IMG/VR virus record: IMGVR_UViG_3300035664_000064 | Location: 1 to 29,466 of that record | Reading direction: 5' to 3' (one strand) | Source: a virus | Length of the DNA stretch: 29,466 bases | In this document: positions 24,437-27,122 of the stretch, in pieces | Position numbering within the stretch: the first letter of the stretch is position 1 | How the letters are laid out: each line of letters opens with the position of its first letter | The notes under the pieces: model-generated | Database searches by the model: none | What the model saw: only the letters and a program-made list of their open reading frames with translations | Told to the model about the DNA's origin: nothing | Made by a program: the position numbers and the translations under genes

Positions 24437-24465
24437 AGTGAACACGCGTACATGCGTTTCGTCAA
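24437..24465 (-). promoter_or_regulatory. Possible early promoter: TTGACG-N17-TTCACT
   Basis: In the AT-richer 135-base gap, the minus strand has TTGACG (24465-24460) and, 17 bases on, TTCACT (24442-24437), 27 bases before the ATG at 24410. The -35 is good and the -10 is weak. An operator-like repeat lies 70 bases upstream. Confidence 0.3.
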
Positions 24466-24534
24466 ACGTTTTTTGGTGTGGTTTCGTCCGTGAAAAACAC
24501 TGAGCGGAGGAGTCGAAAAGCTTGTCGGCACCTC

Positions 24535-24555
24535 TAGCGTCGGAGTTAGAACTGT
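24535..24555 (-). promoter_or_regulatory. Operator-like repeat, copy 2
   Basis: The 21-base segment matches the copy at 24756-24776 at 19 of 21 positions. Its core on the minus strand is TCTAACTCCG. It overlaps the stop of the 50-residue gene. The promoter boxes present around copy 1 are degenerate here. Confidence 0.5.
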
Positions 24556-24698
24556 GGCAGCCCGAGCATTCTGGCGGCCAACGCGAGTAGCTCGACGATG
24601 TCGTGGACTGCCTTCGAGGCCGGAGATTCAGTCCCCAGCTCCTGGCCGATCCTGACGAGGATCAGGGAATGAATTGCAGCGTTCCATGTGCGTTTCAT
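24546..24698 (-). CDS. Small early protein, 50 aa
   Basis: A 50-residue protein, MKRTWNAAIHSLILVRIGQE..., from ATG 24698 with GGAAGG seven bases upstream. It follows a near-consensus promoter. It is helical, with HDIVELLALAARMLG near the C-terminus. It would be the first product of that promoter and could be a regulator such as an antirepressor or Cro-like control peptide. No HTH is visible. Confidence 0.5.
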   Translation of the reverse strand: MKRTWNAAIHSLILVRIGQELGTESPASKAVHDIVELLALAARMLGLPQF

Positions 24699-24751
24699 TG
24701 GATAGCCTTCCGTGGCGTGCACGCCCTGCGGCACTCGCCGCGATGGTGGGC

Positions 24752-24779
24752 AATATAGCGTCGGCGTTAGAAGTGTCAA
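24752..24779 (-). promoter_or_regulatory. Near-consensus sigma70 promoter overlapping operator copy 1
   Basis: On the minus strand TTGACA (24779-24774), a 16-base spacer and TATATT (24757-24752) give a strong sigma70 promoter directed at the 50-residue gene and the early operon. The spacer is filled by the operator-like core TCTAACGCCG, so a bound regulator would block RNA polymerase. Confidence 0.75.
24756..24776 (-). promoter_or_regulatory. Operator-like repeat, copy 1
   Basis: Core TCTAACGCCG followed by ACGCTA, inside the spacer of the strong early promoter. It is repeated at 24535-24555 (19 of 21 bases). The 10-base core recurs in opposite orientation at 25054-25063. Confidence 0.6.
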
Positions 24780-24808
24780 CACCTAAATAAATCGGGATAA
24801 AGGGGCAG

Positions 24809-25045
24809 CTAGTTTGCCTTGAACCCGCCGGCCGGTCGGCCGGTCTTCCGCTTAGCCTTAGCCCGCTTGCGGACCTCGGCCTCGTCGAACACGCGGGCCG
24901 TCGGGGCCGCGAGCCACGAATGTAGCCCGCCTTCGGACGGGTCGAGGGCGGCGAGCTGGCGAATGCGACCCATGGTCACGCCGAGGATCTTCGCCGCCTC
25001 CGCCGTGCCGATCAGTTTCCGTCCTTCTGGTAGTGCCACGACCAT
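24809..25045 (-). CDS. Excisionase- or repressor-like helix-turn-helix protein, 78 aa
   Basis: A 78-residue basic protein. Residues ~10-33 (KLIGTAEAAKILGVTMGRIRQLAA) form a MerR/excisionase-like HTH, followed by a wing (WLAAPTARVFDEAEV) and a Lys/Arg-rich tail with GRPAGG. The ATG at 25045 coincides with the predicted transcription start. A GTG at 25039 has GGAG seven bases upstream and may be the true start. It is divergent from integrase, the usual place of an excisionase or phage repressor. An operator-like core overlaps its own -10, suggesting autoregulation. Confidence 0.7.
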   Translation of the reverse strand: MVVALPEGRKLIGTAEAAKILGVTMGRIRQLAALDPSEGGLHSWLAAPTARVFDEAEVRKRAKAKRKTGRPAGGFKAN

Positions 25046-25051
25046 GCTCCA

Positions 25052-25079
25052 AATCTAACGCCGCGGATAGTCGAGTCAA
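25052..25079 (-). promoter_or_regulatory. Promoter of the HTH gene with overlapping operator copy 3
   Basis: On the minus strand TTGACT (25079-25074), a 16-base spacer and TAGATT (25057-25052) point to the HTH gene. The core TCTAACGCCG (plus strand 25054-25063) overlaps the -10, inverted relative to copies 1 and 2. Confidence 0.6.
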
Positions 25080-25114
25080 ACTGTCCGACCAGCCCGACCC
25101 TCACGACCTGCCCA

Positions 25115-25146
25115 GCCGGCGCGACCGTTTGCATTGGTCGGCCGGC
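25115..25146. other. Inverted repeat in the integrase/HTH intergenic region
   Basis: GCCGGCGCGACC (25115-25126) and GGTCGGCCGGC (25136-25146) pair with one unpaired base around a 9-base loop. The intergenic region (25046-25288) also has a repeated GAGGGGAGT (25188-25196 and 25211-25219) and several AGTCGA strings. These could be integrase arm-type or core sites. No attachment core can be named without the host junction. Confidence 0.4.
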
Positions 25147-25288
25147 GAGGAAAGAGTCGAGGTGTCGGGCAGATTTCGAGTGGAGGCGAGGGGAGTACAA
25201 ACGTTCAGGTGAGGGGAGTCGAATAGTGGTGGACGCGTGTACAGTCCGGTAGGCTGCCCGGCATCTAAACAAAAAAGGAAGTGATGCC

Positions 25289-26302
25289 ATGCGTTCTATG
25301 TTGCTTCGTGATGCGTTTCGTCGGTATGCCTTGCTCCGTGAGTTGAAGCCCAACACGGTTTCGCACTACAGGATGCTCTTCGATCGTCTGGAGCGATTCT
25401 TGAAACGACCGCCGACGGTCGGGGACCTCGAGGACGTGGTCGTCGCGGAGTATTTGGAATGGCGACGACTGACACCTGGTTGGCGTGATCGCCTGCCGAA
25501 GCCGGCCACGATCCGGAAGGACCGGAACATGATCCGGGCCGTCTGGGAATACCTCGCCCGTAAGAAAATCACTACAGAGTTTCCCGAGGTCCCGAAGGTC
25601 AAGGTCCCGAAGACGATCCCTCTCGGTCGTGCCTACACGGCCGACGAGGTCGGCTCCCTGATCAGGGCAGCGAAGCGTCGAATCGGAAGGACGGGCGGCC
25701 TGCCGTCGCGCTGGTGGTGGTCGACGCTTATCTACGCGGCCGTATGCACGGGCGAGCGATTCGAGGCCCTGACATCGCTCCGCTGGGGCCAGGTGGACCT
25801 CGACCGCCGTCGCGTGATCTTCCTGGCCGGGACGCGGAAGGGCTCGACCCGCGACATCGAGAGGGCGGTGACTCCGCAGCTCGCCGCGATGCTCGCGGAG
25901 CACCGTCGCGGGCCGGACGACCTGGTCTGGCCGTGGGATCGGGCGACCCGCAGCCACTGGGCCTCTCTACAAGTCCTGTGCCGATCTGCCGGCGTCGAGT
26001 ATCGGGGGCGAGGCTTCCACGGATTCCGCCGCATGGCGGCCTCCTACGCGGCCCTGGCGGGCGGAGCCGCCGCGGCGACCCAGCTCCTCGACCACAGCGA
26101 CCCGGCACTCCAGGCGGTATATGTGGACCCGCTGATCTGCCCGCGGGACACCTGCTCGGTCGACACCCTGCCGCCGCTGGACCTGGGCGAACTCGACCCA
26201 CGACAACCGGACCAGCGGCCGACGGATTTTGAGTCCGCCGGCCGCGGTCCGTCTACGTCAACGGTAGCGGATCACCGCGTACCACCGACGCGTAACCGGT
26301 GA
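25289..26302 (+). CDS. int: Tyrosine site-specific integrase
   Basis: A 337-residue protein and the only plus-strand gene. The N-terminal SAM-like/core-binding domain (~1-105: NTVSHYRMLFDRLERFL, TIRKDRNMIRAVWEYLARK) is followed by the catalytic domain with all active residues: Arg157 (CTGERFEALTSLRW), Lys184 (GTRKGS), His244 and Arg247 (FHGFRRMAAS), His269 (LLDHSD) and Tyr278 (AVYVD). It inserts and, with an excisionase, removes the phage genome. The ATG at 25289 has an AAAAAAGGAAG stretch upstream. About 55 residues past the Tyr form an unusual Pro/Asp-rich tail. The last 45 bases overlap a convergent gene. Confidence 0.95.
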   Translation: MRSMLLRDAFRRYALLRELKPNTVSHYRMLFDRLERFLKRPPTVGDLEDVVVAEYLEWRRLTPGWRDRLPKPATIRKDRNMIRAVWEYLARKKITTEFPEVPKVKVPKTIPLGRAYTADEVGSLIRAAKRRIGRTGGLPSRWWWSTLIYAAVCTGERFEALTSLRWGQVDLDRRRVIFLAGTRKGSTRDIERAVTPQLAAMLAEHRRGPDDLVWPWDRATRSHWASLQVLCRSAGVEYRGRGFHGFRRMAASYAALAGGAAAATQLLDHSDPALQAVYVDPLICPRDTCSVDTLPPLDLGELDPRQPDQRPTDFESAGRGPSTSTVADHRVPPTRNR

Positions 26303-26569
26303 GAAGGCTACGCCTTCGTCGGCGATCGGACGTGTACCAAAAAAGCAGCACGACCGGCGAGCCTGCTCGGGTGTCGAGCCCATGCCGATCCCTTCCATCT
26401 GGCCGCAGCCAGAATGAACGAGCGAGCCGCGTCGAGCGATCACTGTCGCGTGCGACTGAGCACAGCCGCCGTTCACACAGACGACCGACCGCGGCCGGGC
26501 GATGATCACGTCCTGAGCCACGGCGGCCGAGGCGACGAGCGACAACACAGACAGCAGAAACAAACGCAT
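26258..26569 (-). CDS. Secreted Cys-containing small protein, 103 aa
   Basis: A 103-residue protein with a clear signal peptide, MRLFLLSVLSLVASAAVAQ, and an AAGGA ribosome site. The mature part has CVNGGCAQSHATV, CGQMEGIGMGSTPEQARRSCCFFG and ends RRWYAVIRYR. I recall this '(E)G(I/V)G.S...A...CC(Y/F)(W/F)G' family from planctomycete genomes and their phages; function unknown. It is convergent with integrase and overlaps its end by 45 bases, with no terminator between them. Export suggests action on the cell envelope. Confidence 0.7.
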   Translation of the reverse strand: MRLFLLSVLSLVASAAVAQDVIIARPRSVVCVNGGCAQSHATVIARRGSLVHSGCGQMEGIGMGSTPEQARRSCCFFGTRPIADEGVAFSPVTRRWYAVIRYR

Positions 26570-26624
26570 AGCAAATCCTTTCGCTAGGTGGGAACCGACC
26601 AGCCACTAGCAGACCGGATCGTCC

Positions 26625-27122
26625 CTACGAGTCCAGCGGCTCGGGAGGCTCACAGCCCGGCCCGCGGAGCGTGCCAGCGTTCAGGTGGGGCCAGAGCTGC
26701 TCGGAGTGGATCGCCGCGAGCAGGCCCCAGGCAGCGTGCGGCAGGTGATCCTCCGAGCGGTCGCCGGCGAGGTACTGGTAGATGTGGCGGATCGCGTGAT
26801 TCAGGAGGTCGTTCACCGGCATTCCGGCCTCCCAGTTGAAGTCGGAGTATTTCTCGGCCCCTTCGGCACACGTCCGGGCGACGGCCTCCAGGCCGATCGG
26901 TGAGATCAGGTCGTATCGAGTCGCCTCCGCGTCGCTCGACCTCACAGCCCCGGTCGTATAGGTCACGGTCCCGCCGTTCGTCGTCTTCATGTTTCGCTCC
27001 TTCAGCTCTCGGATCATTCGCAGAGCGAACGAGGCTAGAGAACCTCCAGTGCCAGTCCAGCAGTTTGCCGGACCGAGCCGGCGGCAGAGCTGCTCCGCGG
27101 CGGCGAGGTCGGCGTCGGTCAC
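26625..27122 (-). CDS. dATP/dGTP diphosphohydrolase-like protein (DUF5664 type)
   Basis: A 165-residue frame from GTG 27122 (GTGA overlap with the previous stop). The last ~100 residues match the dATP/dGTP diphosphohydrolase N-terminal-domain pattern: RYDLISPIGLEAVARTCAEGAEKYSDFNWEAGMPVNDLLNHAIRHI in segments, then HLPHAAWGLLAAIHS. It may adjust deoxynucleotide pools during phage replication. An ATG at 26990 has GGAG six bases upstream and would give only this domain. The first 44 residues may therefore be a second small protein in the same frame or an N-terminal extension. Confidence 0.75.
   Translation of the reverse strand: MTDADLAAAEQLCRRLGPANCWTGTGGSLASFALRMIRELKERNMKTTNGGTVTYTTGAVRSSDAEATRYDLISPIGLEAVARTCAEGAEKYSDFNWEAGMPVNDLLNHAIRHIYQYLAGDRSEDHLPHAAWGLLAAIHSEQLWPHLNAGTLRGPGCEPPEPLDS

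Follow-up and report, generated by a model that had tools for sequence, protein, structure and literature searches.

In the immunity regions of lambdoid phages (CI, Cro, OL/OR), repressor and operators form one exchangeable block that sets the immunity group, the repressor is autoregulated, and its mRNA is leaderless. In mycobacteriophage BPs, attP lies inside the repressor gene. The sites of L5-type phages are many, up to ~30, and are scattered as stoperators (PMC6550527). Among small DNA-binding proteins, RdfS (PMC11963761) and XisF4 (PMC7379572) also act on transcription, and BldC, a developmental regulator and not a phage repressor, binds direct repeats head to tail (PMC5859096).

The locus described here lies in the IMG/VR virus record IMGVR_UViG_3300035664_000064, analyzed at its full length of 29,466 b (the window). 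It carries HK97-type head, portal, terminase, tail and replication genes, leftward where identified, and probably belongs to a temperate planctomycete phage. Judged from comparison of related sequences, the segment at 24,535–25,079 is very probably an immunity (lysogeny-control) cassette, in which a repressor of the BldC/Xis fold would act on itself and on early promoters.

Repeated sites around a small regulator gene

The features of the segment and its surroundings are as follows.

24507..24518, minus strand: left cassette edge, att-like element TTTCGACTCC[C/T]C, the junction of swaps in near-identical backbones
24535..24548, minus strand: candidate operator O3, TAACTCCGACGCTA, which overlaps the stop codon that ends the 50-aa ORF (24698-24546)
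24546..24698, minus strand: small early ORF of 50 aa (P0003), between O2 and O3
24752..24779, minus strand: early promoter P2, TTGACA-N16-TATATT, 11/12 consensus, after the HTH stop codon
24756..24769, minus strand: candidate operator O2, TAACGCCGACGCTA, within the P2 spacer and extending into the P2 -10
24809..25045, minus strand: HTH gene (P0001, 78 aa), putative immunity repressor, MerR-like winged helix of the BldC/Xis kind
25052..25079, minus strand: promoter P1 of the HTH gene, TTGACT-N16-TAGATT, 9/12 consensus
25056..25069, minus strand: candidate operator O1, TATCCGCGGCGTTA, inverted relative to O2 and O3, overlapping the P1 -10
25175..25201, minus strand: presumed attP core, TTTGTACTCCCCTCGCCTCCACTCGAA, the right cassette edge in classes G2 and G6
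25289..26302, plus strand: tyrosine recombinase (integrase, P0002), divergent from the HTH gene; phrog_1 integrase, E 4.6e-29

The word TCTAACKCCG has exactly three matches in the whole record, at 24541-24550 (minus strand), 24762-24771 (minus) and 25054-25063 (plus), where 0.12 are expected by chance; none of 100 shuffles reached three. The decamer covers the centre and one half of an imperfect dyad that is itself longer, ~14 bp, and is of the type TAACG-N4-CGNTA in O1, O2 and O3; the outer TA of O1 and O2 constitutes the first two bases of the -10 of the respective promoter. With three mismatches allowed, the 16-mer TCTAACKCCGACGCTA finds O1, O2, O3 and one stray site. The 21-b stretches 24535-24555 and 24756-24776 are 90% identical, in the same orientation and offset by 221 b. 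P1 and P2 are the only promoter matches in 22.6-29.5 kb. These results bear out the original prediction in its description of the locus: three operator-like copies around a small HTH gene, one in the spacer of a near-consensus early promoter, a second 221 b away at the 3' end of the first early gene, and an inverted one over the -10 of the HTH gene's own promoter. The search of the rest of the genome that had been proposed as a check gave no copy of TCTAACKCCG outside 24541-25063.

The HTH protein has a Xis/MerR-like winged-helix fold. A profile search of the PDB returned Pukovnik Xis (4j2n, E 1.7e-5) and BldC (6ama, 3.4e-5), and members of the family match HTH_17, MerR and excisionase families; 19 of 41 match phrog_66, 'excisionase and transcriptional regulator'. 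In the AF2 model (pLDDT 78, pTM 0.60), the best fold match is BldC, with Xis, RdfS and MerR proteins weaker, and none of the matches reaches E 0.001. The -10 of P1 ends 6 nt ahead of the HTH start codon (6-7 nt overall), and the spacing of P1 and this short gap are kept across most HTH classes. The HTH mRNA is therefore probably leaderless, as is that of the lambda cI repressor. Among the ORFs scanned there is no other repressor-like gene, and no Cro-like ORF was found; P1, P2 and the early genes all point leftward. Apart from one unrelated tRNA-Pro, the window and the related loci contain no tRNA or tmRNA gene, and an Rfam scan of the region gave a single sub-threshold chance match.

A search with the HTH protein retrieved 33 loci at 64–99% identity (class G1). 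In all 33, CTAACGCCG-type sites surround the gene, and in nearly every one they lie over P1 and in P2. With few exceptions, the inverted word stands at -18 relative to the start codon, either exact or as ACTAACGCCG (one first-base change), and the word recurs at ~+275 to +307 in the loci that are long enough; further copies follow at ~+400 to +1480, often paired 27-31 bp apart, and matches elsewhere in these loci are rare. O2 is almost invariant in 22 loci (TTCTAACGCCG[A/C]CGCTA). In O1, GGCGTTAG is kept in most or nearly all G1 relatives and the other half is variable. In most G1 relatives O3 forms a full promoter, P3, with TTGACA, a TATGTT-like -10 and the operator in the spacer, often with a second operator 27-31 bp downstream; in some of them, for example L101 and L095, the promoter at O3 is strong and has two operators at this distance. 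O3 of the window is an operator with no recognisable promoter hexamers.

The place of the 50-aa ORF is taken in many, not all, HTH classes by homologous 47-aa ORFs or by hydrophobic ones of 22-23 aa. The small cassette ORF thus occurs in two forms, of ~47-50 aa (M.R.WNAA.HSL.LVR.GQELG..) and of 22-23 aa (MN.E.WIELL....RI.AAG); it accompanies many HTH classes and was not seen in G4 and G5. It possibly encodes an antirepressor or a small membrane protein.

Covariation of site word and regulator class

Searching with the integrase yielded 80 related loci, and in all of them except six with too little upstream DNA a small HTH gene lies divergent from int. Twelve seed-defined HTH classes stand beside this integrase family (11 besides G1 of the window), some of them related to one another (G1 and G4). 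TCTAACKCCG is absent from integrase relatives with other HTH classes; these mostly bear a dyad of their own in two places, the P1 spacer, where it reaches into the -10, and the P2 spacer, and the P2 arrangement recurs in most of them. The promoter spacers of the classes measure 16-18 bp. The site words of four classes are as follows.

Class G3: TACCGATACCGGTA
Class G5: GTACGCTACCGTAC
Class G9: TAGAGATCGCTCTA, at P2 only
Class G13: TAACGCTGTCGTTA, at P1

When class labels were permuted, P1 words fitted the P2 of their own class over those of others (with a single locus per class, p = 0.0015 and 0.0005), in a spacer table partly compiled by eye, with P2 read by eye or left out for several loci, among them L005, L014, L029, L046, L064, L065, L067, L074 and class G6. 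Own-class O2 words are significant at P1 and recur in their own region beyond O2, i.e., at O3, where none of 100,000 permutations scored as high. They are not significant in the HTH coding sequence (p = 0.10) and in the backbone (p = 0.68). P2 spacers show dyad symmetry above that of shuffles (p 0.001). For classes G2, G6 and G9, no operator was recognised at P1.

The original prediction further proposed that the locus is an autoregulated switch and named the 78-aa HTH protein as its candidate ligand. Since the site word changes when the HTH class changes, and the sites travel with the gene, this assignment now has strong comparative support.

Covariation also bears on the possibility that the repeats are nothing but copied promoter spacers read by no protein: O2 and O3 are indeed 21-b near-copies in the same orientation, and O1 and O2 lie in promoters, but the word is kept in relatives, is inverted at O1 and changes only with the HTH class, with permutation support, which makes this reading scarcely credible.

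Cassette ends and the presumed attachment site

Related contigs are mostly 88–97% identical in DNA to the window up to ~24,520-24,527 and again from 25,040-25,177, and these near-identical backbones carry four HTH classes (G1, G2, G3 and G6). Given these breaks of identity, the interval between them, which is in essence the segment 24,535–25,079, is the exchanged unit, and we infer that the segment is an exchangeable immunity cassette, a property not visible from one sequence. Compared base by base, all backbones examined have their left junction at the start of TTTTCGACTCCTCCGCTCAG; the right junction for G2 and G6 falls within a few bases after CTCCCCTCGCCTCCA, and G1 and G3 have DNA in common up to the P1 -35. 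Most loci, whatever their class, retain the left element at the edge of the cassette. Integrase pairs at least 93% identical with different HTH classes number 115, and 34 changes of HTH class, the minimum being 11, fall on the integrase tree, where support is weak at many forks. A flank-pattern search for contigs with no cassette or with new cassette types returned only contigs already known.

Several observations concern the surroundings of the cassette. At the left edge, the TTTCGACTCCTCC element is duplicated in tandem (21 bp) in three G6 loci (L009, L011, L013), as though the edge of the donor and that of the recipient had both been retained. Just beyond this edge, ahead of an 88-aa ORF (24410-24144), the window has a weak promoter-like TTGACG-N17-TTCACT (24437-24465), and TTGAC..TACA-like sequences follow the left element in many loci. 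On the other side, positions 26198-26970 are common to the window and two loci (L004 and L005), and most near-identical relatives have ~250 b in their place, a difference that alters the last 34 residues of the integrase frame.

The right-end core ACTCCCNNCGCCTCCA resembles the 3' end of Planctomycetota tmRNA genes, ..GGTTCGAYTCCCGCCGCCTCCA. Based on this likeness, and on the sole genomic integrase relative being in a Planctomycetaceae MAG, the attP core would correspond to ssrA. This presumed core precedes the HTH start codon by ~130 bp, so that integration would not truncate the protein. An att site at the 3' end of int, where identity with many relatives stops at residue 303, was considered and rejected because the tmRNA 3'-end-like core sits between HTH and int; the break at 26198-26970 resembles an insertion or replacement. 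In L067, L070, L079 and others, the core variant GAGGGGAGCCGCCTCCA replaces GACTCCCGCCGCCTCCA, and its left part appears reversed.

The exact core GACTCCCCTCGCCTCCAC was not present in 149 planctomycete genomes, and no prophage junction was found. The prophage search of genomes gave as its only match the Planctomycetaceae MAG, with an integrase of 47% identity; a search of 392 genomes for the G1 HTH protein, run without a positive control, gave none at E 1e-8. On the contig of the MAG (L117), int and a small HTH gene diverge, and the HTH stop codon is followed by a near-consensus promoter; this shared divergent layout suggests that the int/HTH arrangement is older than the present phage group.

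The cassette might be swapped by the phage's own integrase, or by tandem-prophage recombination, between the tmRNA-type attP core and the TTTCGACTCC element, which we hold to be rather unlikely. The sharp junctions at both elements and the G6 duplication speak for it; against it, left element and core match over 11-12 nt only in some backbones and over 5 nt in the window, figures biased upward by the choice of the element from its pattern. Homologous recombination at conserved linkers would explain the sharp junctions too, and no empty or stand-alone form of the cassette was found. If integrase-driven swapping were true, the immunity module would be site-specifically swappable, and the cassette could stay behind by itself at the ssrA locus of the host, as an island of superinfection immunity.

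Proposed mode of action and relation to known systems

In the preferred reading, a 78-aa winged-helix repressor, made from a probably leaderless mRNA, would bind ~14-bp imperfect dyads lying between the -35 and the -10 hexamers. The early and replication genes, which run leftward, would be shut off from O2 and from O3 (P3 in relatives), presumably by occlusion, since the near-consensus P2 has the operator in its 16-bp spacer. Autorepression is suggested by the overlap of O1 with the P1 -10, and at O1, with its weak second half, the protein would limit its own synthesis. Repressor and operators would be inherited as one exchangeable unit with ~12 specificities, and a switch of cassette would change the immunity group while the integrase and the rest of the phage stay. 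Binding of the sites by the HTH protein, repression through this binding and the resulting superinfection immunity are all inferred steps. The locus does present a repressor-like gene with repeated sites in its own and early promoters, and site specificity shifts with the repressor between relatives, as is characteristic of immunity regions. Against this reading, the nearest structural relatives (excisionases and BldC) bind direct repeats or attP, and the sites here are dyads; O1 is only half conserved, O3 of the window has no clear promoter, the P1 operators of three classes escaped recognition, and host and integrated state are deduced.

The original prediction also suggested that the HTH protein may combine excisionase and repressor roles. 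The class-specific sites support the repressor half. They lend no support to the excisionase half: own-class O2 words are not in excess in the attP arms (int start to P1; p = 0.88), and integrases 97–100% identical, with near-identical att sequence on the int side, adjoin at least four unrelated HTH classes. A dual function, in which the repressor of P1, P2 and P3 also directs excision near attP with relaxed specificity, would extend the preferred reading and not oppose it; it has a likeness in P2 Cox and 186 Apl and draws on the same Xis and BldC matches. That the attP arms have no sites does not settle the matter, as no consensus is required for binding by RDFs such as RdfS (PMC11963761). 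However, class swaps beside one integrase require every class to serve the same att site, and O1 aside, there are no cognate sites near the core. On balance, a dual function is possible, if somewhat unlikely.

We consider it quite improbable that the protein serves chiefly as excisionase (recombination directionality factor) to the adjoining integrase, with the promoter sites reflecting coordinated xis/int control as for RdfS. Fold and profile match Xis (4j2n) and RdfS (8dgl), about half of the members examined match phrog_66, the gene adjoins int with O1 ~120 bp from the presumed attP core, and RdfS binds attP as well as its own promoter (PMC11963761). The exchange of HTH classes beside near-identical integrases and the attP arms described above do not fit such a role, and the operators cover early-gene promoters far from att.

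Very improbable is a MerR-like activator working from the promoter spacer. MerR proteins bind dyads between -35 and -10, where the present dyads lie, and the winged helix is MerR-like; MerR-activated promoters, however, have over-long spacers of 19-20 bp, whereas those of the cassettes are of 16-18 bp and P2 is near consensus, and the 78-aa protein has no effector or coiled-coil domain.

If the HTH protein acts as the repressor, an excisionase-type fold would be used for repression, with ~12 protein classes each having its own site word in one phage family. The cassettes would then offer a natural data set on how a small winged-helix protein changes its DNA specificity, and on how phages change immunity group in one step with the integration site retained.

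Structurally, the closest likeness is to Streptomyces BldC, the best match and likewise a small MerR-like protein without a dimerisation domain (PMC5859096); unlike those of BldC, the cassette sites appear to be imperfect inverted repeats, with dyad symmetry above shuffles. Pukovnik Xis (4j2n), RdfS (PMC11963761) and Pf XisF4 (PMC7379572) resemble the HTH protein in size and in having a tyrosine integrase as neighbour, and the first two also in fold. The cassette differs from these systems in its clear consensus dyads, which lie in promoters and not in the attP arms, and in an HTH class that is not tied to the integrase. In mycobacteriophage BPs, where immunity depends on integration, the repressor gene likewise lies beside attP and integrase (PMC4557955), but the presumed core at 25175-25201 is outside the HTH gene (24809-25045).

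With the lambdoid regions, the cassette would share the exchangeable repressor/operator block, the leaderless mRNA and autoregulation. It differs in having no divergent repressor/cro pair and no visible Cro-like gene, in that the HTH gene and the early promoters run in the same direction with single dyads in separate promoters, and in that the right edge of the block adjoins the presumed attP core. Cluster A mycobacteriophages (L5/Bxb1) also have a DNA-binding repressor, an early-promoter operator and a site in the repressor's own promoter region, and their cognate site sequence differs between immunity groups (PMC6550527). Unlike L5, the window has three sites only, all of them dyads in the cassette, with no stoperators and none of the asymmetric, scattered, one-orientation sites; the repressor is of the Xis/BldC kind, and specificity changes by cassette replacement in one backbone and not only by gradual drift. 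The cassette would work like the lambdoid and Cluster A repressor/operator immunity regions without their defining layouts, and because the 50,697 annotated phage records searched hold no relative of the integrase or the HTH protein, this lysogeny switch appears not to have been described before, in what are probably phages of a little-studied phylum.
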